Below, in pieces: positions 1,181 to 29,464 of a DNA stretch of 64,000 nucleotides. The position numbers and the translations under genes are program-made. The stretch is taken from the NCBI GenBank assembly GCA_022823725.1, contig JAJEHL010000026.1, forward strand, positions 310,001-374,000, read 5' to 3'. Within the stretch, counting starts at the first letter, position 1; each line of letters begins with the position of its first letter. Origin of the DNA: Candidatus Latescibacterota bacterium (GTDB lineage: Bacteria > Latescibacterota > UBA2968). The notes under the pieces were generated by a model. That model was not told the DNA's origin, did no database searches, and worked only from the letters and a program-made list of their open reading frames with translations.

Positions 1181-1196
1181 CGTTCCACGTGAAACA
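1181..1196. other. parS-like centromere site 1
   Basis: The 16-mer CGTTCCACGTGAAACA differs at two positions from the widely conserved ParB site TGTTTCACGTGAAACA and keeps the central CACGTG core. It lies in the mnmE-rsmG gap. A second copy is found after rsmG. This is a match by eye. No parA or parB gene is present in the window. Confidence 0.75.
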
Positions 1197-1274: not shown

Positions 1275-1913
1275 ATGCAACCCGATAAAGCTATTGAGCT
1301 TGCAAAGAGGTCCTTTGATATCTCTTTTTCTCATGAACAGATCGCCAGGCTCCAGCAATATGTCGATTTGCTTACCGATTGGTCGGGTCGCGTTCGATTG
1401 ATCTCCCACAATGATCGCAATTTTATATGGGAACGTCATATTCTCGATTGTCTCTCGCTGGTACCGCATCTTCCAGGACATGGGCCTCTCCTGGATTTGG
1501 GGTCAGGTGCTGGTCTGCCGGGTATTGTGATCAAGATTATGAGGTCAGACCTCGAAGTTTATCTCCTTGAACCCACCCGTATGAAGAACCTCTTTCTCCA
1601 GGAAGCTATTACCGCACTCGGCCTTCAAAACACTTTTGCAATTAGAAGTCGCGCTGAGACCCTTGTTGGGAATTCCTCATTCTCGGGTAAATTTTTGATT
1701 GGTACAGCGCGCGCAGTTGCGCGGCTTCCCCAACTCTGGAATTGGGTTGAACCTCTTCTCGCCCCCCAGGGTGTACTTATTGCAATGAAAGGTCCAGACT
1801 CTCTCCGCGAGTTTACGAACGGTGTTCCAGACCACATTTATGCCTCTGAAACTACTTTGACCTTACCATTTACACGACGAAAGCGTTCCTTTGTTTTTAT
1901 TAAAATATGTTGA
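1275..1913 (+). CDS. rsmG: RsmG, 16S rRNA (guanine527-N7)-methyltransferase
   Basis: RsmG uses S-adenosylmethionine to methylate G527 in the 530 loop of 16S rRNA. The predicted protein of 212 residues matches the family's usual length. It carries the SAM-binding loop LDLGSGAGLPG and the later family motifs TARAVARLPQL and MKGP. I place the start at the ATG at 1275, which has an AAAGG ribosome-binding site about 9 bp upstream. The frame stays open upstream to 1200, but that would add an atypical Cys-rich stretch reaching toward the parS site. Gene order mnmE-rsmG is usual near bacterial origins. The parAB genes that often follow rsmG are absent here; a terminator and an opposite-strand gene follow instead. 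Confidence 0.93.
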   Translation: MQPDKAIELAKRSFDISFSHEQIARLQQYVDLLTDWSGRVRLISHNDRNFIWERHILDCLSLVPHLPGHGPLLDLGSGAGLPGIVIKIMRSDLEVYLLEPTRMKNLFLQEAITALGLQNTFAIRSRAETLVGNSSFSGKFLIGTARAVARLPQLWNWVEPLLAPQGVLIAMKGPDSLREFTNGVPDHIYASETTLTLPFTRRKRSFVFIKIC

Positions 1914-1957: not shown

Positions 1958-1973
1958 CGTTCCACGTGGAACA
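1958..1973. other. parS-like centromere site 2
   Basis: CGTTCCACGTGGAACA contains a perfect 14-bp palindrome (GTTCCACGTGGAAC) with the ParB core CACGTG. It lies 44 bp after the rsmG stop codon and 777 bp from the first copy. Two such sites in flanking intergenic gaps argue for function rather than chance. Confidence 0.75.
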
Positions 1974-4523: not shown

Positions 4524-5207
4524 ATGAAACGATTTGTTTTTTTGGGGCTATGCCTTTCGATAGCGGCCTGTGGAGGTAGTGGAATGGAAGATTTAAAACA
4601 AGCCAATGAGAAGTTGAACAATGAGAATCGGTCTTTGAAAAGCTCTTTGAACAAGGTGCAAAACCAGATTAAGCGGGCTGGCGAGGTCGGAGGTCGAATG
4701 CTATTTCTGGTCAAACAGATTCGGGATGTGAAAGCGCGTATCGCGACGAATATGGGGGATATTGAATTGAAGTTCCATCCCGAAAAGGCACCTGTTCATT
4801 GTTTTGCTTTTATCGCGCGGGCAGAAAGTGGGTTTTATGACAATACCAAGTTTCATCGCGTAATTAAAAATTTTATGATTCAGGGTGGCGATCCAAATTC
4901 AAAGGACGATGATTCATCTGATGATGGAATGGGGGGACCCCTCGTACATATCCCTCACGAATTTAATGATACAAAACATGTACCGGGTATTCTTTCTATG
5001 GCACGCATTTCAGATGTGTCGGCGGGTGCTGGCTCACAATTTTTTATTATGCACGGGTCTTCGCCCAATTTGGACAATCAATATACTGCTTTTGGAGAAG
5101 TGACAAAGGGAATGGATGTGGTTAACAGTATTGCAATGGTCGAAACCGCACCAGGAGATCGACCTCTAAAACCCGTGGTGATCAAGCGCATAGATGTGTT
5201 TCGATAG
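4524..5207 (+). CDS. Lipoprotein cyclophilin-type peptidyl-prolyl isomerase
   Basis: The start has an AAGGAG ribosome-binding site. Residues 1-16 form a lipoprotein signal ending in SIAAC, with Cys16 as the lipidated residue. Residues about 22-70 are a charged helix with coiled-coil character (KQANEKLNNENRSLKSSL). The cyclophilin domain runs from about residue 75 to 226 and shows the hallmark segments FHRVIKNFMIQGGD, GSQFFIMHG and YTAFGEVTKGMDVV. The protein is therefore expected to be anchored to a membrane on the periplasmic side, catalysing proline isomerisation during folding of envelope proteins. The coiled-coil spacer between anchor and domain is the unusual part. The gene precedes the predicted origin. 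Confidence 0.9.
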   Translation: MKRFVFLGLCLSIAACGGSGMEDLKQANEKLNNENRSLKSSLNKVQNQIKRAGEVGGRMLFLVKQIRDVKARIATNMGDIELKFHPEKAPVHCFAFIARAESGFYDNTKFHRVIKNFMIQGGDPNSKDDDSSDDGMGGPLVHIPHEFNDTKHVPGILSMARISDVSAGAGSQFFIMHGSSPNLDNQYTAFGEVTKGMDVVNSIAMVETAPGDRPLKPVVIKRIDVFR

Positions 5208-5342
5208 ACAGGTGTGAAGAGATGAGATGGGCAAGCGGTGTATGAAGGCGAGTAACGAACTGCTGATGAACCATCGCAGTTGTACATCGCTCTGAGCATG
5301 ACTGCGGCAGCAAGTTCATCAAAGGAGATGTGTGGCATCAAA

Positions 5343-5447
5343 TGTGGAAAAGTGGATAATATTATCAACAATTTAAATGGTTGATTTTATTTAATAACGG
5401 AATAAATTGAGGTGGAGAGATGAAAGTTATCCACATACTTTTCCACA
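5343..5447. other. Candidate replication origin (DnaA-box cluster, oriC)
   Basis: Five DnaA-box-like 9-mers lie in 105 bp. On the minus strand are TTTTCCACA (5343-5351) and TTATCCACT (5351-5359). On the plus strand are TTATCAACA (5362-5370), the consensus TTATCCACA (5427-5435) and TTTTCCACA (5439-5447). Between the two groups (about 5371-5410) the DNA is very AT-rich and could be the unwinding element. The gap 5208-5614 has no gene, and a short inverted repeat (AACTGC/GCAGTT) lies at 5258-5281. Nearby mnmE, rsmG and two parS-like sites support an origin. dnaA and dnaN are not in the window. Confidence 0.72.
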
Positions 5448-5524
5448 TTTCCTCTCAGATTTCTCAACGCTAAAATGCAGGCATTTCGGGGTGTTTTTTG
5501 GCCTGTGCGGAAGGGATATTTCGC

Positions 5525-5553
5525 TTGCTACACCTACCGAATTGGCCTATATT
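5525..5553 (+). promoter_or_regulatory. Probable promoter of the CDP-alcohol phosphatidyltransferase gene
   Basis: TTGCTA (5525-5530) and TATATT (5548-5553) are separated by 17 bp, ending about 60 bp before the GTG start at 5615. Confidence 0.55.
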
Positions 5554-5614
5554 TGAATTTGTTCTAACAGTAGAAAAATTCAAATAAAAACTTCACTCTC
5601 CGTGGGTTTTAACA

Positions 5615-6208
5615 GTGATCGAAAAAGTTAAAGATGATGTTGCCGAGATTTTGGCACCTTCTACAGAATATCTCGTCGAAAAACGCTTTACTCCCGATTT
5701 GTTGACGATGATCGGGTTTATTTTCAATATAGGTGCCGCAGTACTCTTTGGCTTTGGATTGTATATGTGGGCCGGGTTGACGGTGCTTGTTGCGGGTATT
5801 TTTGATTTTCTCGACGGGCAGGTGGCGCGCAAGGGCAAAACAGAATCCAAATTTGGTGCGCTTCTCGATTCTACTGTTGATCGATATTCCGAAATTTTTA
5901 TCTGGTTTGGTATCGCGATCAGTTTTATACGAGCTGATGATCTCTGGACAAGCTCGGCAGTCTTTTTTGCACTGGCAGGATCTCTGATGGTGAGTTATGT
6001 ACGCGCGCGCATTGAGGGTCTTGGAGCGGAGTGTAAAGTTGGGTTTATGCAGCGTCCCGAGCGCATTATTGCCATTGGCGCTGGCGGGGTGATCGTACCT
6101 TTGATTGGGGATATTGGTTTGATCGTTGTGGTCTGGGCAATTGCTCTGTTGGGAAATTTTACTGCGATGGAGCGGGTAATTCACTTTCGAAAGCTAACAA
6201 AATCATAA
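5615..6208 (+). CDS. CDP-alcohol phosphatidyltransferase family membrane protein
   Basis: The 197-residue protein contains the complete family signature D-x2-DG-x2-AR-x8-G-x3-D-x3-D, beginning DFLDGQVARKG. The four Asp residues bind metal and catalyse transfer of a phosphatidyl group from a CDP-lipid to an alcohol. Several hydrophobic helices mark it as an inner-membrane enzyme. The segment SYVRARIEGLG resembles phosphatidylinositol-phosphate or archaetidylinositol-phosphate synthase-type members more than PgsA, so an inositol-phosphate-like acceptor is possible but not proven. The start is the GTG at 5615, with no strong ribosome-binding site. A terminator follows the gene. Confidence 0.88.
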   Translation: MIEKVKDDVAEILAPSTEYLVEKRFTPDLLTMIGFIFNIGAAVLFGFGLYMWAGLTVLVAGIFDFLDGQVARKGKTESKFGALLDSTVDRYSEIFIWFGIAISFIRADDLWTSSAVFFALAGSLMVSYVRARIEGLGAECKVGFMQRPERIIAIGAGGVIVPLIGDIGLIVVVWAIALLGNFTAMERVIHFRKLTKS

Positions 6209-6290: not shown

Positions 6291-7367
6291 ATGTCCGGTA
6301 TTTTCATATCATTTGAAGGCATTGATCAAAGCGGGAAAAGCACCCAGGCCAAGTTGCTATTTGATCATTTGCAGGCGCGTGGGTACGAGGTTGTATTTAC
6401 TTATGAGCCGGGCGATACAGAACTCGGTCAAGAAATTCGGCGTCTCGTACTCGAAAGGAAAACGCAAGGCGAGATTGATGCAACCGCCGAAATGTTCTTA
6501 TTTTCAGCGGATCGCGTACAACATGTTAACGAATTGATTCGGCCATCGCTGGATGCGGGCAAAGTGGTAATTTCAGATCGTTACGTCGATTCTACATTGG
6601 CCTATCAGGGCTATGGTCGCGGGTTGAATCTCGATGACCTGAGAATGGTTCAAAACGTGGCCACGGGTGGTTTAAAACCAGATATCACAATCTGGATAGA
6701 TGTCGATTTGCAGACGGTTCAAAAACGGGAATTGCCACTTTTTTCAGATCGCATTGAGTCAGAAGATAGAGGGGATAAAGGGGAGAAAACATTTTTTCAA
6801 AGGGTTCGGCAAGGTTTTAAAGAAGCGTGTCAATCTGAATCCGACCGCATTTTCAGGGTGGATGGGACGCGATCCATCAGTGCTGTGTTTAAGGATGTTA
6901 AAAAGGTAGTTGTTAATCAAATCTCTGTCAGGGATTTATACAAGATTAACTTGAAAGACTGGGTATTTAGTACCATTGAGAAGGTAGAAAAAGGGACTGC
7001 TTGGAACTATGCGTGGCAAGAGACATATTTCGAGCTGGGAGGCAAGAGCAAAGAAAGTGGACGTAAATTCTCACCTATGAACGGCACAGAGATCCTGTAT
7101 CGACTGGGAAGAATCAAAGGCAGCAGAAAGCCTTTTCGAAATCCAGAATTGAAAGAGATATGGAACTGTTCAACAAATGGAGCCTATGCGATTCTGGCGT
7201 TGGAATACATTTTAGAAAAGCCCGATATTTCTCGGTCCGAGTTGTGGGCCAGAATACAAGAGCGTATTCGTTCTGAATTGGGCGAGGAACCCGCAAAGTT
7301 CAATCAAGGTGCTCCCACAGTTGCATATAAGCTGTGGCATCTCGGACTGATCATGCACGACAAATGA
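6291..7367 (+). CDS. tmk: Thymidylate kinase with unusual C-terminal extension
   Basis: Residues about 1-210 are a dTMP kinase, which phosphorylates dTMP to dTDP for DNA synthesis. The P-loop is FEGIDQSGKST, with Gln where Gly is usual. The substrate motif is DRYVDSTLAYQGYGRG. The LID region holds SDRIESED and the later FFQRVRQGF. Usual Tmk proteins have about 200-215 residues; this one has 358. The extra residues of about 215-358 are rich in Trp, Tyr and charged residues (for example STNGAYAILALEYILEKP) and look like a separate, partly helical domain that I do not recognise. There is no frameshift or stop at the junction. The gene stands between a terminator and the protease gene. Confidence 0.85.
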   Translation: MSGIFISFEGIDQSGKSTQAKLLFDHLQARGYEVVFTYEPGDTELGQEIRRLVLERKTQGEIDATAEMFLFSADRVQHVNELIRPSLDAGKVVISDRYVDSTLAYQGYGRGLNLDDLRMVQNVATGGLKPDITIWIDVDLQTVQKRELPLFSDRIESEDRGDKGEKTFFQRVRQGFKEACQSESDRIFRVDGTRSISAVFKDVKKVVVNQISVRDLYKINLKDWVFSTIEKVEKGTAWNYAWQETYFELGGKSKESGRKFSPMNGTEILYRLGRIKGSRKPFRNPELKEIWNCSTNGAYAILALEYILEKPDISRSELWARIQERIRSELGEEPAKFNQGAPTVAYKLWHLGLIMHDK

Positions 7368-7408: not shown

Positions 7409-9319
7409 ATGTTTCTCCGAAGAAGATTCGCCATTTTTATAACTTTAATTGGTGTTTTAGGTGTTTATCTGGTACTCGATTCCCGGTTGGTGACCGGCGA
7501 AGATACTTATGAGCAATTGGGGCGCGGTTTTGATGAGATTAACGAAGCCTACCGCCTGCTCTTCAACCAGTATGTCGATGAGTTGAAGCCAGGGGATTTG
7601 AGTAAGGCTGCCATTTCCGGAATGTTGTGGGATCTGGATCCTTATACGACCCTTTTTGATAGTAGCGACCTCAAGCAACTTCAGATTGAAACACAGGGAA
7701 AATTCGGTGGGCTGGGCATTATGATCAGCAAGCGAGGAAAGGATGATGGGCCTCCGGTTGTGATGAGTGTTATTGAAGGCACGCCTGCCGATTCCACCAG
7801 CCTCGTTGTGGGAGATCGCATTGTCGCCATTGACGGGGATCCGACTTTTGACAAGGATCTGCGCGAAATTGTCAATGTTTTGCGGGGTGATCCAGGTGCT
7901 GGCGTGACCATCAAAATTGAGCGACCAGGGATGAAGGACCCCTTTGATCAGCCCATTATTCGGGCGCGCATTGACATTTCAAGTGTACAAATTCCGGGCG
8001 AAGTCGATCCCGATATCGGTTATATTTCCATGTCCTGGCTCAGTGCTTCTCGATTTACTGAACGCACAGGAGGAGAGTTGCAACAGGCGTTGATAAGATC
8101 GCTCAATAATGGCGCTACGGGGATTATCCTGGATTTGCGCGGCAATCCCGGAGGCTTACTCAACGCGGCGGTTGATGTGGTCGATAAATTTTTGCCATCT
8201 GATCGCCTGGTTGTGTCAACCAGAGGTCGCCTTTCGGATCAGAGTCGCAGTCACAAAACGCGCGACGACTCCGTATTGCCCGCCGAGATTCCACTCGTGA
8301 TCCTGGTTGACGAGCGCAGTGCCAGCGCATCAGAAATTGTCGCAGGGGCAATTCAGGATTGGGACCGGGGGGTTATAGTGGGCACGCAAACATTTGGAAA
8401 AGGCTCTGTACAGACCGTGCGCCAACTGGGTCGTCTGGGCGATAAGGCTTTGAAGCTGACAACAGCAGCCTATTATACGCCGAGTGGACGCAGCATTCAC
8501 AATGCTGAGAAGCGCCGATATCGCGGCGGTCCCATTGAGATTACTGTGGGAAATTCAATCAAGGTCTCGGCCTATGAACTCTTTGGTATTATTGGTCAGG
8601 CTGAACGGCGCGAAGATGTTATTACGGAACTCGAGGAGAGATTTGATCTGGACAAGGACCTGGCGGAAGAAGTACTTGGAATGCGATTGGAAGGGTTGTT
8701 GGGATTGGCTTCCAGCGAGCATAACGGCCCCGAAGATGTCGATCCCGAAAAGGTATTTACAACGCGCGTGAACAAGCGCAAAGTTTATGGCGGCGGTGGG
8801 ATTAAGCCCGATGTGGTGGTGCAACAAGAGCGCAGGCCACGGCTGGTGATAGCATTATTGCGCGAGGGGTTGATTTTTGATTTTGCGGTTGATTTTGCAA
8901 CAAAGCAATCATTCCCCAATCGGTTTGAAGACTACACCTTGCCCGAAGATATTGTCGCTCAATTCTGGACTTTCATGGCAGATTCATCCAATGCCGAGGG
9001 TTTTGACTATAAAGCGGATACAGAAATTCAAGTGCAAGAGGTCAAGAAATCACTAAAAGAGAAGGATGTATTGACAGACGAGACCACAGCCGCACTCAAT
9101 CAATTGTCACAGGCTGCCGAGCGCGAGCGCGAAGCCGATTATAATAAGGCCGAGCCGTATATCCGTCTGGAAATTGAACGGGCATTGGCCAATCGCGTGT
9201 GGGGCACTAATGGCAAAATTTTAGCGACGCTGAAGGGTGATAAGCAATTTCAAGAGGCTGTTCGTCTGTTAAAGGATCGGGCTGTTTACGCGCAAAAATT
9301 GGCATTGGTGGAAGAGTGA
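7409..9319 (+). CDS. C-terminal processing protease (S41 family, PDZ domain)
   Basis: The 636-residue protein begins with a basic stretch and a single hydrophobic segment (residues about 7-25), so it is exported or anchored in the inner membrane with the catalytic part outside. A PDZ domain at about 90-175 includes GLGIMISKRG and VVGDRIVAIDGD. The S41 core has ILDLRGNPGG, the Ser motif DERSASASEIVAG and the Lys motif TFGKGSVQT, which form the Ser-Lys dyad region. The family trims or degrades proteins from their C-termini in the envelope. The C-terminal part of about 200 residues is longer than in small CtpA proteins and mostly charged and helical. The ribosome-binding site is CTGGAGG. Confidence 0.92.
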   Translation: MFLRRRFAIFITLIGVLGVYLVLDSRLVTGEDTYEQLGRGFDEINEAYRLLFNQYVDELKPGDLSKAAISGMLWDLDPYTTLFDSSDLKQLQIETQGKFGGLGIMISKRGKDDGPPVVMSVIEGTPADSTSLVVGDRIVAIDGDPTFDKDLREIVNVLRGDPGAGVTIKIERPGMKDPFDQPIIRARIDISSVQIPGEVDPDIGYISMSWLSASRFTERTGGELQQALIRSLNNGATGIILDLRGNPGGLLNAAVDVVDKFLPSDRLVVSTRGRLSDQSRSHKTRDDSVLPAEIPLVILVDERSASASEIVAGAIQDWDRGVIVGTQTFGKGSVQTVRQLGRLGDKALKLTTAAYYTPSGRSIHNAEKRRYRGGPIEITVGNSIKVSAYELFGIIGQAERREDVITELEERFDLDKDLAEEVLGMRLEGLLGLASSEHNGPEDVDPEKVFTTRVNKRKVYGGGGIKPDVVVQQERRPRLVIALLREGLIFDFAVDFATKQSFPNRFEDYTLPEDIVAQFWTFMADSSNAEGFDYKADTEIQVQEVKKSLKEKDVLTDETTAALNQLSQAAEREREADYNKAEPYIRLEIERALANRVWGTNGKILATLKGDKQFQEAVRLLKDRAVYAQKLALVEE

Positions 9320-19405: not shown

Positions 19406-22400
19406 CTATTGAATCCAGTAGTGCTGGTGCTGGAATGGATAGCTCGGCAAGGAGATGCGACGGCGCGTTTCTCCCGCAAATAGCCCGGGAAATGAAACTG
19501 TAAGCCCCGCCTCATAAGCCTTCGCCACTGCTTGTACAAACCTGTCGTCTCCCAGACTCGATAACACAACCGGTGGTTCCGCGTCGCCCTCTATCGGATC
19601 CAGCACTGCGTTTGGACCAATCTCGATGAGTACATCAATCCCCTGGTCGGCCAGCTTCTTCAGGCATTTGTCGAATGCCGCCTGTTCCTGCGCTTGCCGA
19701 TGCCAGTATGCTGCGTCAAGGCTCTCGATCTCTCCTGTTACACTGCTCACCAGGGTCAAAGATGGCGATGCAATTGTGACGTCTGCGAGGGTGGCTTCCA
19801 GACTGTCTGTGTCCCGCTCCAGCGCAACCCGCAAGCCATCCTCTAAGCTAAAGACGCCTGCCGCTTGCGCTGCTGCAATTTCCCCGATATCGCGTCCGAC
19901 CACCACGCTGGGCTGAATCCCCACGCTTGACCACAGTGCTGTAAGTGCGGATTCCAGTGCATAGATGGCTGGCAGATCAGATAGATCGTCGGTCTGACCG
20001 AACATCACGTCCAGCAACGAGGTGCCACGCTCTTCCCGAAGGACTTCGTCGCAACGGTCCAGAACTGCGCGGACTACCGGCTCGCTTTCGTAGAGTTCCT
20101 TACCCGTGCCGATCCATTGGCTGTCCTGTCCGGTGTACGCGAAGGCGACCTTTGTCGCCGTATGCGGTTCTGGTCTTTCACCGATCTCTGCGAGTGTCTG
20201 TAACCTCTCTCTCAGCGATTCGGTATCCTGGAATACGATGCCTGCGCGGTGATCGAAATGGCTGCGCCCCACACCTGCTGTCCACGCCATGTCGGCAAGC
20301 AGGTCCACATCTTCGGATGCGAGCGCGTCAAGCCACGATAGGTATCGCTCTGTCAGATCTCGAAGTGCTTCATCGGATTTTCCCGATAGGGGCAGGAGCC
20401 GCGTCTGGCGCGGAGCGAATTCTTCTTCCTCGCCTATGAGATCCACGACCGACAGAGAAACGGGTTGCGCGGAACCCACAGGCGTTGCATCCGGGCTGTC
20501 ATATCCTTCTACGACAGCATGGGCGTTTGTGCCCGATATCCCGAAGGCGCTTACCCCCGCCCGCGGCGGTCGGTCGGGATGGCGCGGCCAGTCTGTCAGG
20601 GCTGACACTACCTGCACCGACAACCGGTCCCAGTCTATATGAGGACTCGGATTCTCAAAGTGCAGGTTTTTAGGAATCACCCCCCGCTTCATCGCAAGTA
20701 CTGCCTTGATCAGAGCCGCAACCCCGGCAGCTGGCTCCAGATGACCGATGTTGGTCTTCACAGAGCCGATCAAAAGCGGACGATCTGCTTCGCGTCCCTT
20801 GCCGTAAACTGCGGCCGCTGCCTGAACTTCGATCGGGTCGCCCAACTCCGACGCCCCCCCGTGTGCTTCCAGATAATCTACTTCTGATGGAGCAACGCCC
20901 GCCCGCGATAATGCCTCTTCAATCACCCGCTCCTGCGCCGGTCCGTTTGGCACGGTGGGTCCTGCGCTGGCTCCATTCTGGTTGACCGCTGACCCGCGGA
21001 TCACGCCCCAGATGCGGTCGCCATCGGCTTCTGCCTCGCTCAGCCGTTTGAGGACGATCATCCCACAGCCCTCACCCCGGACGAAGCCATCCGCAGAGGC
21101 ATCGAAGGTTTTGCACTGCCCTTCCCGCGACAATATCCCCAACTCCGCCATCTCTTTGGTTAACTCAGGAGACAGCACTGCGTGTGTCCCTCCAACCAGA
21201 GCCATATCTATTTCGCCCTCTCGCAAACCCATCACTGCCTGATGTACCGCGACCAGTGACGACGCGCAGTTGAGTTCCACCGGTATCGTCGGTCCCTCCA
21301 GACCAAGAAGGAAAGCAATTCGTCCGACCGTCATGCTCGCGGCAGTGCTCAGATAACTGATGCCGTAGTCGCTGGCTGTCATCAGGTCCCGGTATTCGCT
21401 GGTGGCGATGCCAGCGTATAGCCCGGTGCGGCTGCCCCTCAATTTGTCTGGATCCATTCCCGCATCCTCGAGCGCTTGCCAGGTCGTCTCCAGCATCATG
21501 CGCTGCCGCGGATCCATCATGCGCGCTTCAATCGGCGAAATCCGAAAGAATCTCGCGTCAAATTGATCAATTCCCTCCACAAATCCGCCTTGGCGATAGG
21601 CGGCGTATTCGGGAGGAAGGTCTTTGGCAAGAGCGTTCCATGAACCGGAATCCCGACGTCCATCTGTCACGGCGTCCGCACCTGCTTCGAGCTGCTGCCA
21701 GAAGGCGGAAAGATCCGGGGCGCCGGGAAAGCGGCAGGCCATGCCCACAATCGCAATACCGTTGTCCTCGCGCTGTACTTCCGTCTGTGGTTCTGGTTCG
21801 GGTTGCACCTGGGGTGGAGGGGCGGGCGCAGTGCTGACTTCGCCGAGTTCCTCGATGAGATGGTTGGCGAGACGGGCGATGTCCGGGTAGTCAAATACCA
21901 CAGTGTTAGGTACCACGTACTCATCGGCAAACGCGCGGTTCAGCCGGTTTCGCAACTCTACGGCCATTAGCGAGTCCATCCCCAGATCGAAAAATCCCAC
22001 CGTGGGCTCGGGTGCTGTCGGCAACCTCAGCACCGCCTGTAATTCCTGCTGCAGGAACGATACCAACAGGGCCTCACGCTCCGCCGCGGGCGTTTCCGCC
22101 AGACGGGACATCAGGTCGTCCGCCAGAGCAGGCGAGTCGACCTCGTCTTCTGAAATGGTGGAGAGCAGATCCTCCAGCAGGGGCATCCGGTATTCCAGGC
22201 CCTCCCCGTAAGACAGCCAATCGGCCGCCAGTACGACGGATGTCGCGGCGTCCTCGCGCACCAACTGGTCGAATGCCCTGAGACCTTGCTGTGGCGTGAT
22301 CCAATCCGTTCCGCGCGCTTCCAGCCGTTCGGCAATCCGTTCCCGTTGTTCTTCCGCTTCGCCGAGTTCCGACCACGCGCCCCAGGCGATGGTCTGTCCC

Positions 22401-25400
22401 GGAAGTCCGAGTGCGCGGCGATGCGCGGCGAGTTGGTCCAGAAACGCATTGGCCGCCGCGTGATTCGACTGGCCCGGATTGCCCAGCACACCGGCCACGC
22501 TGGAGAAGAGGACAAACATATCCAGATCGCGGTCCTCAGTCGCGCGATGCAGATGCCACGCGCCCAGCACCTTCGGCCACAGCACCTGCTCGAATCTTTC
22601 CCAACTCTGGTTCCCGAGCGCACCGTCCGACAACACCCCCACGCTGTGGATTACGCCCCCGAGCGGCGGTAGCGTCTCATCTATTCGCGCCAGCATCTCA
22701 TCTATTGCATCGGCGTCCGTTACATCTGCGAGTTCTACCTGCACTGTCACGCCGCGTTCCCGCAGCCTGCGGATCGTCTCTTCGGCTTCAGGGTCCGGTG
22801 CCCGGCGCCCGTTTAGCGCGATTGCACCCGCGCCGCGATCCGCCAAATAGTCGGCCATTACGCACCCGATCCCACCCAGACCACCTGTTACCAGATAGGT
22901 TCGATCCTCTCGCAACCGCCCACTGGTGAGCGGCGAATTCGCAAAGGCAATTTTTCCGATGTGTCTGCCGTCGCGCATGAACTCAATGGCCCGTCTCGCT
23001 TCGGCAAGCGGCCATCTGGTGTGGATGAGCGGCGTTAGTTCTCCCGCTGCCAGCCGTTCCATGATGTCTCTCAGCAAAGCGCCGGGTCGCGCCGGGTCAT
23101 CCCCCTTCATGGCATGAAGATTCACGATGTAATAGGCCACGTCCGGCCGTACGGCCGCCATCTCTTCCTCGCTCAGAATGTCCCGCGCCGCCAATTCCAC
23201 GAACCGGCCACCATGCGCCAGACACGCCAGACTCGCGTCGATGAAACCCTCCGCCGTCAGGCTGTTCAATACCACATCGACCCCTGCGCCGTCCGTGGCC
23301 TCGAGGATTTCCTCCCCGAATTTCGTCTGACGGCTGTCGAACACATGCTTTACACCGAGCGAGCGGAGATACGCCTGTTTCGGCGCGCTCGCCGTCGCGA
23401 ACACTTCCGCTCCCGCCGCCTGCGCCCACTGGATGGCCGCAAGCCCCACGCCACCCGCGCCTGCGTGAATCAGTACGCGGTCACCGGCTTTCAGTTCCGC
23501 GAGTTCGTAAGATAGGGCGACTGAGACGAACACCGTCGGCATTGAGGCGAGCGCCGTGGCGGACAAATCCGGTGGCGCGGGTGCCAAGAGTTCCGCCCGG
23601 GTCACCACCTCCGGCCCGAAGGTGCCGAATGCCAATCCCACGACGCGATCGTCCACCGCAACGCTCGCCACCTCGGAGCCGACCTCGATGATATGGCCGC
23701 AAAACTCCGTGCCCAGGAATTTTTCGTCAATCAAACCGAGCGCCGCGAACACATCCCAGAAGTTCAATCCGGCGGCCTCGACAGCCACGCGAACTTCTTT
23801 CGACTTCAGCGGCGTCGGCGCCACCTGCAGGTCAGCGATCGCGCCGTCCTCGCCGACCCCCAGCATCCAGCCCGGCTCTTCGGGCAAGTTTATCCTATCC
23901 GTCCCCTCGCCGGTCCGGACAAGGCGGGCTACGCGGCGTCGGCTGCCGCGGTGTACGATTTGGTCTTCCGTATCGGGATAGAGCAGTTCATTGGCGAGGT
24001 CTATCGGCGGTGCCGTAGGCTCGGGATCCAGATCGATCATCTTCGGCTGCATGTGGGATGCTTCCCGGGCCAGTACCTTTCCGAAACCCCATAGCGTTGC
24101 GCCAGCGAGTTCTCCGGCGCGTTCGCGCTCCAGCACCTGCGCGCCCCGCGTGAGAAACCACAAGCCCTTCTCGGGCGTCACATCGGCGTCGGCCAGACCC
24201 TGCGCCAGCGCCAATGCGCTCGCTCCCACTCGTTTCACGTTCTCCGCCATTTCAGCAGTCGTCGTATCGGGGCCGGGGCCGTCGAGTGCCGCGAAATGCA
24301 CGACTCCGCTGAGTGCCGCATGCCGGGGCAGGTCTTCGAGCAGCGACCGCCACGATTCTCGGTGCTCCATCTCCAGGGACGTATGGATGACAGCGGTTTT
24401 TGCATCCGCCGGACCCTCTCCTGTCGAACCCGCATCGCTCGCCAGCACAACCGTCTGGTTGCGCGCCGCCAACTCCATGGCCAGTTCCGCCGCCGCGCCG
24501 CCACGATCCGCCGCCAGAACCCATACTCCGCGTCTCTCGGCTACGTCCTCGGGCAGTTGCGCCAGAATCACGCCCCTATCCGGCATCTCGGCGTCGTCGG
24601 GTCCGCCCAGTCCCAGAATCTCCACGCCTTCGAAACCCACGCTGCCGAGGGACTGTCGCCATACGTCTGGCCCCGCCAGGGCGTAGGTGGGGCGGCAGTC
24701 GTCGGAGAACCGCCACCAGCCGTCCAATTGTCCGAAAGTCATATCCAGCCAATCCTGGCCGCAAAGGTTCTCGAGTGCCACGAGATGTCCCGACGGCGCA
24801 AGAAGGCTCCGGCAGTGCGTTAGCGTCTCCTCCAGGTACCGCGTGGCGTGAAGCACATTGGACGCAATCAACAAATCATAACCGTGGGCGTCGAATCCCT
24901 GCTCTACGGGGTCTTTTTCGATATCCAGCACCCGGTACTCGATACACTCATCGCCGAACAACCCCTCTGCCTGCGCGAAGAAGCCCGCCGAGATATCCGT
25001 GTACATGTAGTCGTACCGCCCTTCGGGAAGCTCCGGCAGGACGGATTCGGTCGCCGATCCGGTACCCGCCCCGACCTCAATCACCCTCAAGCGCCGTCCT
25101 TCGGGCAACCCGGCTACAAGTGTGCGCACCGCGTCTCCCAGCATCCGGTTCGACGCTCGATATATCGGTGCCTTGAAATAGAGATCCGCGGCGCTGGGTT
25201 CTCCGCTGCCGAAGAGAAGCGACAGCGGATCCTCCTCGCCGCGAAGCACTTCCGCCAGGGCACCCGCGCTTCTGCGAAAAATCCCGATCTCGCTTGAAGC
25301 ATACGAGTAACGCTCGCTCACTTGTGCCGCGAACTGCTCGGGATTGCCCGGAATTCCTTCTGGCAAGGGATCTCCAGCCCCTACGGCAATGACAAAATCT

Positions 25401-28400
25401 TCGCCCGCCGCCTCCAGAACGCCTGCGCGAGCCAGTATCTCGAGCATCCGGCGGAACAGACGGCTGTGTTCATCCAGGACTCCCAGGCGCTGCCGCAAAT
25501 CTTCGGAGTCCACGGCGGTGCCCGCCTTCCTCTCCCATCCGAGCTTCTCCAGGGCCGAGAGCGCAAAATGCCGCGCCATGCACGAGAGGTCCGCCAACCA
25601 GGCGGGCCTCAATCCGGCGTCGACTCCTTCCGCCGCCAGGTAGTCGGAGAACAGCTCCCAGCGGTCCGCAACCTCTCCCGGACTCGGGAGGAAATCCGCT
25701 GGCAGCAGTCCCGGCGCAAGGGTGCTTTCGCGCCACATGACCTCGTAGAGCAGTTCCTGAACCCCTTCCACTGCCGAGAGCAGCGCCGCCCGCGTCGCGC
25801 GCTTCACCATGAATCCGCTCAATTCGCCGATCAGGACCCCACTCTGGTCGTAGAGAAGGAAATCCCCCACGAAGACCTCCGGCGACCCGCCGGTTTCGGC
25901 ATCCGGTTCCCGATTCTTCGAAGCCTCCCGCATGCGCACGTGGCAGAGAAACCGATCCGGTAGCCGATCCGGCAGCCACAGCCGCTCCCAGCCGAACGGC
26001 AGATAGGTGATTCCATCTTCGGCTCCACCCGGATTGCGCGCGGCTCCCATCACCTGAAAGCAACCGTCGAGCAGGAGCGGGTGTACGTCGAGATCGTTCC
26101 CGCCGAGAGCTTCGGGAAAACATACTTCTCCCAACGCCTCGCCCGCCCGGGACCAGACCATCCTCAGCGTGCGGAACGATGGGCCGAGATCAATCCCGAC
26201 GCCCGCCTTGGCGCGGTAAAACGCCGACACGTCTTCGGGCGACAGATCGGCCTTCAGGCTTTCCAGATCCACCTGCTCAGAGGCTTGCCTTGCGCCGGCA
26301 TCCGATGGCGCGCGACATTCCGCGTGCAGCGTCCAATCCTCCTCTGCCTCTCCTTTGCTGAATATTCGAACGAGGCGCGAAGGCTCCTCTCCCGGAGCCT
26401 CGAGCAGAACCTGCATTTCCCGGCCCCTGCCTTCATCGTTATCCGCACTCTCCTCCAGGAAGATCAGCGCATTGTGCAGTTGCATTTCCTCGATGACCAT
26501 CGATCCGCTTTCCTCAGCCATGGATGCCGATATCGCCATTGCCCCATAGAGCGCGCCCGGGGCTATGACGCGGCCGAACACTCGGTGATCGTTCAGCCAC
26601 GGCGGGTCTGAGGGGAACACTTCTGTCTCGAACGCAATCTCGCCGCTGGCGGATTCATGCCTCTCGCCCAGGAGGGGATGGCCAGCACTCTGCCGCCGTC
26701 GTTTCGGTGCTTCGACCCAGTAGCGTTCGCGCTGGAAAGGATAGCCCGGCAGCGAAATACGGCGCCGGGTTTCACCTGCGAACAGTCCGGCAAAGGACAC
26801 GGAAAGACCTGCTTCATAAGCATTTGCAACCGCCGCTGTAAACGCGCGATCAGCTTCTGCTTGCGACACTTTGGACGAGGGACGCAATAAGCTCGGTAGC
26901 GCGACAGGGGGACCCTCTGCCGTGTCTGGCCACGACAGGGTCGCCATTGTACTCAGCACGGCGTGCGGACCGACTTCAATGACGAGATCGACGCCCAGCT
27001 CAGCCAATGTCTCGATGCTTGGCGCAAATGCCACTGGCTTTCGCGTGTGCTGACGCCAATACGCACTATCCTGACGTTTTCCCGTTTCCAGCACCTGACC
27101 CGTCACATTGCTCACCAGGATGAGCGACGGGGGCGCGATCGCGATCTCTGAGACTATGGCATCCAGTTTGTCCAGCATCGGCTCTACCAATGCACTGTGG
27201 AATGCGTGCGTGGTGCGCAAGCGGCTGACCCGAATGTCCTGCGCGAGGAAGTGCTCGGAGATCGCCTCGACTTTTTCTTCGGGACCGCTCACCACCTGAT
27301 GCGCTCTGTTGTATGCCGCAATGCTCAGTCCCACGCCTGTGGAGGCTGCGTTCAATTCGTCGAGGGCTGATTCTACCTGTGACACGTCCGCAAAAATGGC
27401 CGCCATGGCCCCACCACCGGGCAGTGTCGCTGTCAGTTCACCTCTCGCCGCGGCAAATCGCACACCTTCTTCTATGCTGAAGACACCTGCTGCTTGCGCC
27501 GCTGCCAGTTCTCCAAGACTGTGTCCGAGCACCACACTGGGTGTAATACCCACACTTTTCCAGAGCGCCGTCAGCGCGCATTCTATCGCAAAAATGGCCG
27601 GTTGTGTCCACTCCTGGGCGGATAAATCACCGGCGTGCCCGAACATCACATCGAGCAACGAGGTGCCTCGCGCTTCTCGCAGCACGGCGTCGCATTGGTC
27701 CAGGACTGCCCGCACCACTGGTTCGGTGTGGTACAGGTGCTCGCCCATACCGACCCACTGGCTACCCTGTCCGGTATATACAAATGCGATTTTGGAGGGC
27801 GTTTGCGGTGCAGGTCTCGTGCTGATCTCTGCGAGTGCATTCAGGCTCTCGCGCAGCGATGCGCCATCGCTGAATACGATGCCCGCGCGGTGAGGGAAAT
27901 GGCTTCGTCCCACGCCGGCTGTCCACGCCATGTCGGCAAGCAGGGCTTCATCTTCGGAAGCAAAATCGCGTTTCAGGTACTGCCTCGCCAGGTCTCGAAG
28001 CGCTTCATCGGATTTTCCCGATAGCGGCAGCAACCGCGTCCTGCGCGCGCCGAGTTCTTCCTCCGGCGGTAGCACTGACTTCGGTAGAGAAATGGCAACA
28101 GGCCGTGCGAGTCCCACGGGTAAATACTCTTCATCACTGCTTTTTGGTGTTCCGTACCCCTCCACTATGACATGCGCGTTTGTGCCCGACCATCCGAACG
28201 AATTCACTCCCGCAATCGGTGGTCGTTCGGCGTTGAGGGGCCAGTCCATTGCCTCGGAAGTCACTCGCAGAGGTAGTCGATCCCAGTCCATGTTCGGATT
28301 GGGATTCTCGAAGTGCAGATGCTTTGGGATCACGCCCCGCTTCATCGAGAGTACGGTCTTGATCAGGCCCGCAACCCCCGCGGTTGGCTCCAGATGACCG

Positions 28401-29464
28401 ATATTTGTTTTTACCGAGCCGACGAGTATCGGGTTGTCCGCCTCGCGCCCCCTGCCGTACACCGCTGCTGTCGCGTTTATCTCAATGGGGTCGCCCACCT
28501 CTGTGCCCGTTCCATGTGCCTCCACATAATCGACTTCCGATGGCAGAATTCCCGCCCGCGATAGTGCCTCTTCGATCACGCGCTCCTGTGCCGGACCGTT
28601 TGGTACCGTCAGGCCTGTACTCGCGCCATCCTGGTTTACCGCGGTGCTTCGGATGACGGCCCAGATGTGATCGCCATCGGCCTCTGCTTCGCTCAGCCGT
28701 TTGAGGACCACAATTCCGCAGCCTTCACCTCGCACGAAGCCATTCGCAGACGCATCAAACGCCTTGCATTGCCCGTCTGGCGACAACATCCCGGCATTTC
28801 CCCGCAGTTCGGTTAGCCGCCCGGAAAGGATCGCCTGCACCCCGCCCGCCAGTGCCAGATCCGCTTTGCCCTGCTGCAATTCAGCAACCGCCTGGTTTGT
28901 CGCAACCAGCGACGACGAACAGGCGGTATCTACCGCCATTGCCGGTCCCCCCAGTCCCAATGCGAAGGCTACTCGACCTATGGCTGTGTTCAGAGAGGTG
29001 CCCGCGACAGAGAAGAGGCTGGCGGAAGGCTCGGCAGTTCTACTGGATCCCAGGATTACGCCCCGATAATCGTTGTTGCTGATTCCCGCGTACACACCGG
29101 TGCGGCTACCCTTTAGCCGATCCGGATCTATCCCCGCGTCCTCGAGCGCCTGCCAGCTTGTCTCCAGCATCATCCGCTGCTGCGGATCCAACAATTGCGC
29201 TTCGACCGGCGAAATGCGGAAGAAGGTGGCGTCGAACTGGTCGATGTCATCGACGAAGGCACCGAAACGGCAGGCGTCGTTCTGCACCTCAGCGTCTGGG
29301 AAGAGCGTGCCTATGCGACCGATGCCAGAGCCTGGAGCCCCTTCTGTCACGGCGTTCTGACCGGCTTCGAGCAGACGCCAGAAGGCAGAGATATTCGGCG
29401 CGTTGGGAAATCGACACGCCATACCTATGATCGCTATTGGTTGGTCTGATTTATCCGGCTTCAT
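19406..29464 (-). CDS. Type I polyketide synthase: KS-AT-DH-MT-ER-KR-ACP-KS-AT(degenerate)
   Basis: 3352 residues, start preceded by GGAGG. KS1 (about 8-430) has Cys182 in DTACSSS, plus EAHGTGTEVGDP and KTNIGHLEP. AT1 (about 565-900) has Ser649 in GHSLGE, and HAFHS, which suggests malonyl-CoA. DH has His960 (HRVFGRVIAP) and Asp1133. A C-methyltransferase carries EVGAGTG (near 1465). ER has HAGAGGVG (from 2000). KR has VTGGLGGIG (near 2192), but His2335 (SNHAAAN) replaces the catalytic Tyr. ACP has Ser2498 (LGMDSLMA). KS2 keeps Cys2733 as NCASS. AT2 reads GRDIGE (Asp3192 for Ser) and lacks about 88 residues. There is no thioesterase. Domain order fits a reducing, methylating, probably iterative lipid or polyketide synthase, as in small sponge-symbiont PKSs. 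The product is unknown. Confidence 0.93.
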   Translation of the reverse strand: MKPDKSDQPIAIIGMACRFPNAPNISAFWRLLEAGQNAVTEGAPGSGIGRIGTLFPDAEVQNDACRFGAFVDDIDQFDATFFRISPVEAQLLDPQQRMMLETSWQALEDAGIDPDRLKGSRTGVYAGISNNDYRGVILGSSRTAEPSASLFSVAGTSLNTAIGRVAFALGLGGPAMAVDTACSSSLVATNQAVAELQQGKADLALAGGVQAILSGRLTELRGNAGMLSPDGQCKAFDASANGFVRGEGCGIVVLKRLSEAEADGDHIWAVIRSTAVNQDGASTGLTVPNGPAQERVIEEALSRAGILPSEVDYVEAHGTGTEVGDPIEINATAAVYGRGREADNPILVGSVKTNIGHLEPTAGVAGLIKTVLSMKRGVIPKHLHFENPNPNMDWDRLPLRVTSEAMDWPLNAERPPIAGVNSFGWSGTNAHVIVEGYGTPKSSDEEYLPVGLARPVAISLPKSVLPPEEELGARRTRLLPLSGKSDEALRDLARQYLKRDFASEDEALLADMAWTAGVGRSHFPHRAGIVFSDGASLRESLNALAEISTRPAPQTPSKIAFVYTGQGSQWVGMGEHLYHTEPVVRAVLDQCDAVLREARGTSLLDVMFGHAGDLSAQEWTQPAIFAIECALTALWKSVGITPSVVLGHSLGELAAAQAAGVFSIEEGVRFAAARGELTATLPGGGAMAAIFADVSQVESALDELNAASTGVGLSIAAYNRAHQVVSGPEEKVEAISEHFLAQDIRVSRLRTTHAFHSALVEPMLDKLDAIVSEIAIAPPSLILVSNVTGQVLETGKRQDSAYWRQHTRKPVAFAPSIETLAELGVDLVIEVGPHAVLSTMATLSWPDTAEGPPVALPSLLRPSSKVSQAEADRAFTAAVANAYEAGLSVSFAGLFAGETRRRISLPGYPFQRERYWVEAPKRRRQSAGHPLLGERHESASGEIAFETEVFPSDPPWLNDHRVFGRVIAPGALYGAMAISASMAEESGSMVIEEMQLHNALIFLEESADNDEGRGREMQVLLEAPGEEPSRLVRIFSKGEAEEDWTLHAECRAPSDAGARQASEQVDLESLKADLSPEDVSAFYRAKAGVGIDLGPSFRTLRMVWSRAGEALGEVCFPEALGGNDLDVHPLLLDGCFQVMGAARNPGGAEDGITYLPFGWERLWLPDRLPDRFLCHVRMREASKNREPDAETGGSPEVFVGDFLLYDQSGVLIGELSGFMVKRATRAALLSAVEGVQELLYEVMWRESTLAPGLLPADFLPSPGEVADRWELFSDYLAAEGVDAGLRPAWLADLSCMARHFALSALEKLGWERKAGTAVDSEDLRQRLGVLDEHSRLFRRMLEILARAGVLEAAGEDFVIAVGAGDPLPEGIPGNPEQFAAQVSERYSYASSEIGIFRRSAGALAEVLRGEEDPLSLLFGSGEPSAADLYFKAPIYRASNRMLGDAVRTLVAGLPEGRRLRVIEVGAGTGSATESVLPELPEGRYDYMYTDISAGFFAQAEGLFGDECIEYRVLDIEKDPVEQGFDAHGYDLLIASNVLHATRYLEETLTHCRSLLAPSGHLVALENLCGQDWLDMTFGQLDGWWRFSDDCRPTYALAGPDVWRQSLGSVGFEGVEILGLGGPDDAEMPDRGVILAQLPEDVAERRGVWVLAADRGGAAAELAMELAARNQTVVLASDAGSTGEGPADAKTAVIHTSLEMEHRESWRSLLEDLPRHAALSGVVHFAALDGPGPDTTTAEMAENVKRVGASALALAQGLADADVTPEKGLWFLTRGAQVLERERAGELAGATLWGFGKVLAREASHMQPKMIDLDPEPTAPPIDLANELLYPDTEDQIVHRGSRRRVARLVRTGEGTDRINLPEEPGWMLGVGEDGAIADLQVAPTPLKSKEVRVAVEAAGLNFWDVFAALGLIDEKFLGTEFCGHIIEVGSEVASVAVDDRVVGLAFGTFGPEVVTRAELLAPAPPDLSATALASMPTVFVSVALSYELAELKAGDRVLIHAGAGGVGLAAIQWAQAAGAEVFATASAPKQAYLRSLGVKHVFDSRQTKFGEEILEATDGAGVDVVLNSLTAEGFIDASLACLAHGGRFVELAARDILSEEEMAAVRPDVAYYIVNLHAMKGDDPARPGALLRDIMERLAAGELTPLIHTRWPLAEARRAIEFMRDGRHIGKIAFANSPLTSGRLREDRTYLVTGGLGGIGCVMADYLADRGAGAIALNGRRAPDPEAEETIRRLRERGVTVQVELADVTDADAIDEMLARIDETLPPLGGVIHSVGVLSDGALGNQSWERFEQVLWPKVLGAWHLHRATEDRDLDMFVLFSSVAGVLGNPGQSNHAAANAFLDQLAAHRRALGLPGQTIAWGAWSELGEAEEQRERIAERLEARGTDWITPQQGLRAFDQLVREDAATSVVLAADWLSYGEGLEYRMPLLEDLLSTISEDEVDSPALADDLMSRLAETPAAEREALLVSFLQQELQAVLRLPTAPEPTVGFFDLGMDSLMAVELRNRLNRAFADEYVVPNTVVFDYPDIARLANHLIEELGEVSTAPAPPPQVQPEPEPQTEVQREDNGIAIVGMACRFPGAPDLSAFWQQLEAGADAVTDGRRDSGSWNALAKDLPPEYAAYRQGGFVEGIDQFDARFFRISPIEARMMDPRQRMMLETTWQALEDAGMDPDKLRGSRTGLYAGIATSEYRDLMTASDYGISYLSTAASMTVGRIAFLLGLEGPTIPVELNCASSLVAVHQAVMGLREGEIDMALVGGTHAVLSPELTKEMAELGILSREGQCKTFDASADGFVRGEGCGMIVLKRLSEAEADGDRIWGVIRGSAVNQNGASAGPTVPNGPAQERVIEEALSRAGVAPSEVDYLEAHGGASELGDPIEVQAAAAVYGKGREADRPLLIGSVKTNIGHLEPAAGVAALIKAVLAMKRGVIPKNLHFENPSPHIDWDRLSVQVVSALTDWPRHPDRPPRAGVSAFGISGTNAHAVVEGYDSPDATPVGSAQPVSLSVVDLIGEEEEFAPRQTRLLPLSGKSDEALRDLTERYLSWLDALASEDVDLLADMAWTAGVGRSHFDHRAGIVFQDTESLRERLQTLAEIGERPEPHTATKVAFAYTGQDSQWIGTGKELYESEPVVRAVLDRCDEVLREERGTSLLDVMFGQTDDLSDLPAIYALESALTALWSSVGIQPSVVVGRDIGEIAAAQAAGVFSLEDGLRVALERDTDSLEATLADVTIASPSLTLVSSVTGEIESLDAAYWHRQAQEQAAFDKCLKKLADQGIDVLIEIGPNAVLDPIEGDAEPPVVLSSLGDDRFVQAVAKAYEAGLTVSFPGLFAGETRRRISLPSYPFQHQHYWIQ

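Follow-up and report, generated by a model that had tools for sequence, protein, structure and literature searches.

The cluster of five DnaA boxes at positions 5343-5447 of the window (the whole stretch of 64,000 nucleotides analysed here, identical to C2:310001-374000 of the 739.9-kb contig C2 of an uncultured Latescibacterota bacterium) is probably a conserved accessory site of DnaA binding that would regulate the operon next to it, close to a likely oriC on the dnaA side. Judging from the arrangement of boxes, promoter and genes, we give this reading a probability of roughly 0.55. The boxes are conserved and hold a fixed place before the promoter of a PIPS-like gene, and only the dnaA side shows an unwinding-type module. 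The accessory reading is favoured because no unwinding module was detected above chance at this cluster in 28 genomes, because the position of the cluster follows that of the PIPS-like gene and not that of rsmG and parS, and because known DUEs lie beside a box cluster, not within it.

In the proposed mechanism, DnaA would bind the two groups of boxes that flank the 56-bp AT-rich core, next to the operon promoter, and the chromosome would be unwound at a separate cluster directly downstream of dnaA, not at 5343-5447. Bound DnaA may regulate an operon comprising the PIPS-like gene (encoding a putative acidic-phospholipid synthase), tmk and an S41 protease gene, and such regulation would couple the supply of lipids and of dTTP to the DnaA cycle. 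Lying near oriC and being duplicated early, the cluster might also titrate DnaA, holding it away from oriC. If DnaA does control the PIPS-like gene and tmk, the initiator would be linked to the supply of both acidic phospholipid and dTTP.

DnaA boxes upstream of the PIPS-like gene

DnaA boxes were called with at most one mismatch to TTATCCACA. As the sequence-only reading had described, five boxes (one perfect and four with one mismatch) lie on both strands within 105 bp around an AT-rich core, and the gap at 5208-5614 holds no plausible gene (Table 1). An Rfam scan of the first 12 kb and a tRNA scan gave no matches. The same reading judged this density unlikely by chance, and the numbers agree: with 232 boxes on C2, about 8e-6 clusters of at least five boxes in 105 bp are expected, and two were found, one at 5343-5447 and one next to dnaA. 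The window as a whole contains 18 boxes, compared with 11.3 ± 3.5 in shuffles, and its box count falls to chance level when the five clustered boxes are removed. The surroundings of the core are within the least stable 0.05% of the 50-bp windows of the contig, and the core sits amid the boxes, not beside them. A chance cluster in AT-rich intergenic DNA is hardly credible: nothing speaks for it beyond the AT-rich setting, and both the expected number and the conservation over the genus and most of the class stand against it.

Table 1. Positions of the features at and around the DnaA-box cluster, numbered from the first letter of the window.
Feature	Position	Strand	Remarks
parS-like site between mnmE and rsmG	1181..1196	-	1 mismatch
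rsmG (gidB)	1275..1913	+	PF02527
parS-like site after rsmG	1958..1973	+	2 mismatches
Cyclophilin-type prolyl isomerase, upstream neighbour of cluster	4524..5207	+	
DnaA box 1, TTTTCCACA	5343..5351	-	1 mismatch; all columns invariant in 11 genus genomes
DnaA box 2, TTATCCACT	5351..5359	-	1 mismatch; 89% of columns invariant in genus
DnaA box 3, TTATCAACA	5362..5370	+	1 mismatch; kept, or as GTATCCACA, in 10/11 genus genomes
AT-rich core between the two box groups	5371..5426	.	56 bp; 27% GC; 30% invariant columns
DnaA box 4, perfect TTATCCACA	5427..5435	+	89% of columns invariant in genus
DnaA box 5, TTTTCCACA	5439..5447	+	present in 11/11 genus genomes
Probable promoter, TTGCTA-17 bp-TATATT	5525..5553	+	76% of columns of 5519-5556 invariant in genus
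CDP-alcohol phosphatidyltransferase, PIPS-like	5615..6208	+	PF01066; directly downstream of cluster throughout class
tmk, dTMP kinase with C-terminal DUF6979-like extension (~140 aa)	6291..7367	+	
S41 C-terminal processing protease	7409..9319	+	third gene of conserved block

The cluster was found to be kept in all ten genus relatives searched. In the genus alignment, boxes 1, 2 and 4 are 89-100% invariant, versus 5% for the 135 bp before the boxes. Although box 5 is present in every genus genome, only 44% of its columns are invariant in the alignment, probably as a result of an alignment slip. Throughout families f1-f4, almost all genomes in which the DNA upstream of the PIPS-like gene is assembled have two to six boxes there; the exceptions are G011, with no box, and G016, with one. 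The position held in the window by the prolyl isomerase gene is occupied in other families by rsmG or the FAH hydrolase gene, and in f1-f4 the boxes persist whichever of these genes precedes them. Box number, orientation and spacing differ between families; the median core length in relatives is 70 bp (interquartile range 56-111). In other families of the phylum, the PIPS-like gene lies elsewhere or in different surroundings and is without such boxes. Family f9 is the exception, with boxes before an rsmI-PIPS promoter (L279 3954-4062; L278 2442-2645); dnaA and rsmG were not found on the f9 contigs that carry these boxes. In family f10 (L282/G056 and L283/G057), dnaA and the PIPS-like gene are about 10 kb apart on the same strand, and no clusters of E. 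coli-type boxes were detected at either gene.

A three-box group at C2:269.8 kb was taken as incidental; the surrounding DNA is 93% identical in the relative G007 and looks coding, and no cluster was found at the corresponding place in G007, G008 or G037. A further tight tandem pair of boxes, TTATCCACATCGTTATCCACA, lies on another contig (G000 C35:21608-21628).

The origin region and the cluster beside dnaA

The sequence-only reading placed its candidate oriC away from dnaA. This description is correct inside the window, but the absence of dnaA is only apparent, because the gene (C2:305622-307004, minus strand) lies just beyond the left edge of the window, 3-4.4 kb away, with 8.3 kb between its start and the cluster; dnaN, at C2:286.1 kb, lies about 29 kb to the left. 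The order of elements is box cluster 1, dnaA, rpmH, rnpA, yidC, mnmE, parS, rsmG, parS, an HTH gene, the FAH hydrolase gene, the prolyl isomerase gene, box cluster 2, the PIPS-like gene, tmk and the S41 protease gene. The proximity of mnmE, rsmG and two parS-like sites, also pointed out in the earlier reading, was confirmed, and dnaA, rpmH, rnpA, yidC, mnmE, rsmG, the parS sites and a sign change of the GC skew all fall within about 20-30 kb. A general caution is that a cluster apparently far from dnaA in a fixed window may be accessory, with the likely origin just past the edge. The parS-like sites, which flank rsmG in the window, recur around rsmG throughout the class. The only ParB-type match in the home genome is on a contig other than C2.

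Box cluster 1 lies directly downstream of dnaA, at about C2:305.4 kb and about 9.9 kb to the left of the 5343-5447 cluster. A denser cluster elsewhere, which the sequence-only reading had named as evidence against its proposal, is thus present: the two clusters are equal at the 105-bp scale, and the dnaA-side cluster is the larger per 300 bp (seven boxes versus five). On the dnaA side, the box TTTTCCACA is followed by GAATCCACAG, CG and TTATTATTATTG, an order that matches the published arrangement of tandem boxes, GC spacer and DnaA-trios (PMC8287927). No 50-bp window of the contig is less stable than the one adjoining this module, and the module recurs in relatives, for example as TTATCCACA-TTTTCACAG-CTATTATTGTATCTACTA (L096).

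A strict DnaA-trio pattern was found at 9 of 30 loci for the dnaA-side cluster, and no strict run of trios (0-16 bp from a box) was detected at any of 30 loci with a cluster of the 5343-5447 type. A scored trio search was adopted because the strict pattern missed TTATTATTATTG of the home genome; in this search, the boxes were held fixed in the shuffles, and the weights were our own approximation of the published motif logo. The mean z was 1.5 on the dnaA side, with 11 of 28 genomes above 2, versus 0.07 (chance level) for the 5343-5447 cluster and its counterparts, with 1 of 28 above 2. The home genome itself reaches only z = 1.9 on the dnaA side, and several f2 genomes score at chance there too. 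Because of its larger number of boxes, its DnaA-trios and the least stable 50 bp, the dnaA-side site is the better oriC candidate. The earlier proposal therefore holds for the region, marked by dnaA, mnmE, rsmG, parS and the change in skew, but probably not for the site.

The GC-skew check suggested with that proposal revealed a switch in the region, with the cumulative skew on C2 reaching its minimum at 287.8 kb, within a broad plateau. The curve falls to this minimum, is nearly flat to about 350 kb and then rises; the plateau, at about 280-350 kb, is too broad for two sites 10 kb from each other to be told apart. Of three complete relatives, G008 (OY282377) has negative skew to the left and positive skew to the right of the region, and its local minimum falls between the box clusters; G037 has its local minimum at dnaA, and the skew of G007 (OX638329) is uninformative. 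In yidC, mnmE and rsmG the GC skew at third positions is lagging-like; in the genus genomes it changes sign between rsmG and the FAH gene, nearer the 5343-5447 cluster than the dnaA side. This was set aside as proof because the GC and TA skews of yidC, mnmE and rsmG contradict each other. Overall, the skew places the origin in the region of both clusters, but its resolution does not allow a choice between them. A literature search found no work on oriC in Latescibacterota, and the dnaA-side site and the second cluster therefore provide a concrete map to test.

The PIPS-like gene, its promoter and its neighbours

In profile searches, the best hits of the 5615-6208 product were 6h53 and 5d92 (E 1e-26 to 1e-24), with 6wm5 also matched; the best hits are phosphatidylinositol and phosphatidylinositol-phosphate synthases. 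Among NCBIfam models, those of inositol-phospholipid synthases, including PIPS, rank first, and "PIPS-like" is the appropriate level of claim because all of these matches are below the cut-off. In families f1-f4 and f9, the PIPS-like gene is usually followed by tmk and the S41 protease gene, and in f9 an inositol-3-phosphate synthase gene lies between the PIPS-like gene and tmk. Several close relatives carry the DUF6979-like extension of tmk intact; in L046/L147 it is divided between two frames, and it was not found in the remaining loci searched.

Between the last box and the TATATT element lie 39-286 bp (median 100 bp), and 39-147 bp in all but one genome. The boxes are thus close upstream of the promoter and conserved with the gene, as expected of a DnaA-regulated promoter. 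Distances of up to 286 bp are nevertheless loose for a classical regulator, and the AT-rich core and low stability would also suit an origin; both points count against the accessory reading. A similar promoter motif was observed in other families, including f8, which has no boxes there.

DnaA of Bacillus subtilis regulates several operons, for example yqeG-M and trmEF-rsmG-noc (PMC8203912). Boxes precede the operon in these cases as well, and trmEF-rsmG-noc also lies in an mnmE-rsmG neighbourhood; the difference is that the candidate target here would be the PIPS-like gene with tmk and the S41 protease gene. A link between DnaA and this operon is plausible on two grounds: DnaA of B. subtilis regulates an operon containing rsmG, and in E. 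coli the protein is reactivated by acidic phospholipids (PMC3645759, PMC3535390).

Alternative roles of the cluster

Could the cluster be part of an origin after all? One alternative is a bipartite origin with a wide spacer: the cluster would be its distal half, DnaA bound there would reach DnaA on the dnaA-side cluster through looping, and both halves would be needed for efficient opening at the dnaA side. The bipartite origins of B. subtilis and Helicobacter pylori likewise have paired box clusters of which only one has an unwinding module (PMC4285127), and across the class the dnaA-rpmH-rnpA-yidC-mnmE-rsmG block is flanked by the two clusters, which are conserved together. However, in described bipartite origins the spacer measures no more than about 2 kb and is usually dnaA by itself (PMC4285127), whereas in Latescibacterota it amounts to about 6-12 kb (9.9 kb in the home genome) and includes several genes. 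Moreover, in families f1 and f2 other genes intervene between rsmG/parS and the cluster, indicating that it travels with the PIPS-like gene and not with the dnaA block. We consider this arrangement unlikely, if worth keeping in mind. An extended version, in which a class-wide split origin has clusters about 6-12 kb apart that cooperate, the far one also driving the acidic-phospholipid synthase operon, appears rather more doubtful. If it were true, it would close a loop between DnaA and membrane lipids of the type that reactivates this protein in E. coli.

It is improbable, by a similar reckoning, that 5343-5447 is the true oriC or a second one. Boxes on both strands around an unstable AT-rich core, parS nearby, the skew change in the region with its minimum between the clusters in G008, and the sign change of the third-position skew all suit such a role. 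Compared with a BUS-type oriC, in which DnaA boxes, GC spacer and DnaA-trios follow in order (PMC8287927), the locus shares the box cluster, the AT-rich DNA and the neighbourhood of dnaA, mnmE, rsmG and parS, but differs in having no trios above chance, in its core lying between the boxes and in the presence of a full-module site 9.9 kb away. The strict trio run is missing from every relative, known DUEs flank the cluster rather than lying amid the boxes (PMC4285127), the dnaA-side site surpasses the locus in boxes, trios and instability, and the local skew minimum of G037 is at dnaA.

A narrower role would be that of an initiation-control locus only, titrating DnaA or changing its nucleotide state with no transcriptional effect. 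Clusters of DnaA boxes outside oriC are known from E. coli as datA (PMC10950094) and DARS, and the 5343-5447 cluster resembles them in lying outside the likely oriC. Being origin-proximal, dense in boxes and outside the likely unwinding site, with a distance to the promoter that varies between families, the cluster would be suited to such control. However, it always precedes the same gene and promoter, even in f9, where dnaA is on no shared contig, and a role restricted to initiation control is therefore quite improbable.

About 14 kb from the cluster, the minus strand at 19406-29464 of the window encodes a 3352-aa type I polyketide synthase with KS, AT, DH, MT, ER, KR and ACP domains, which sits in a GC-rich island of negative skew.
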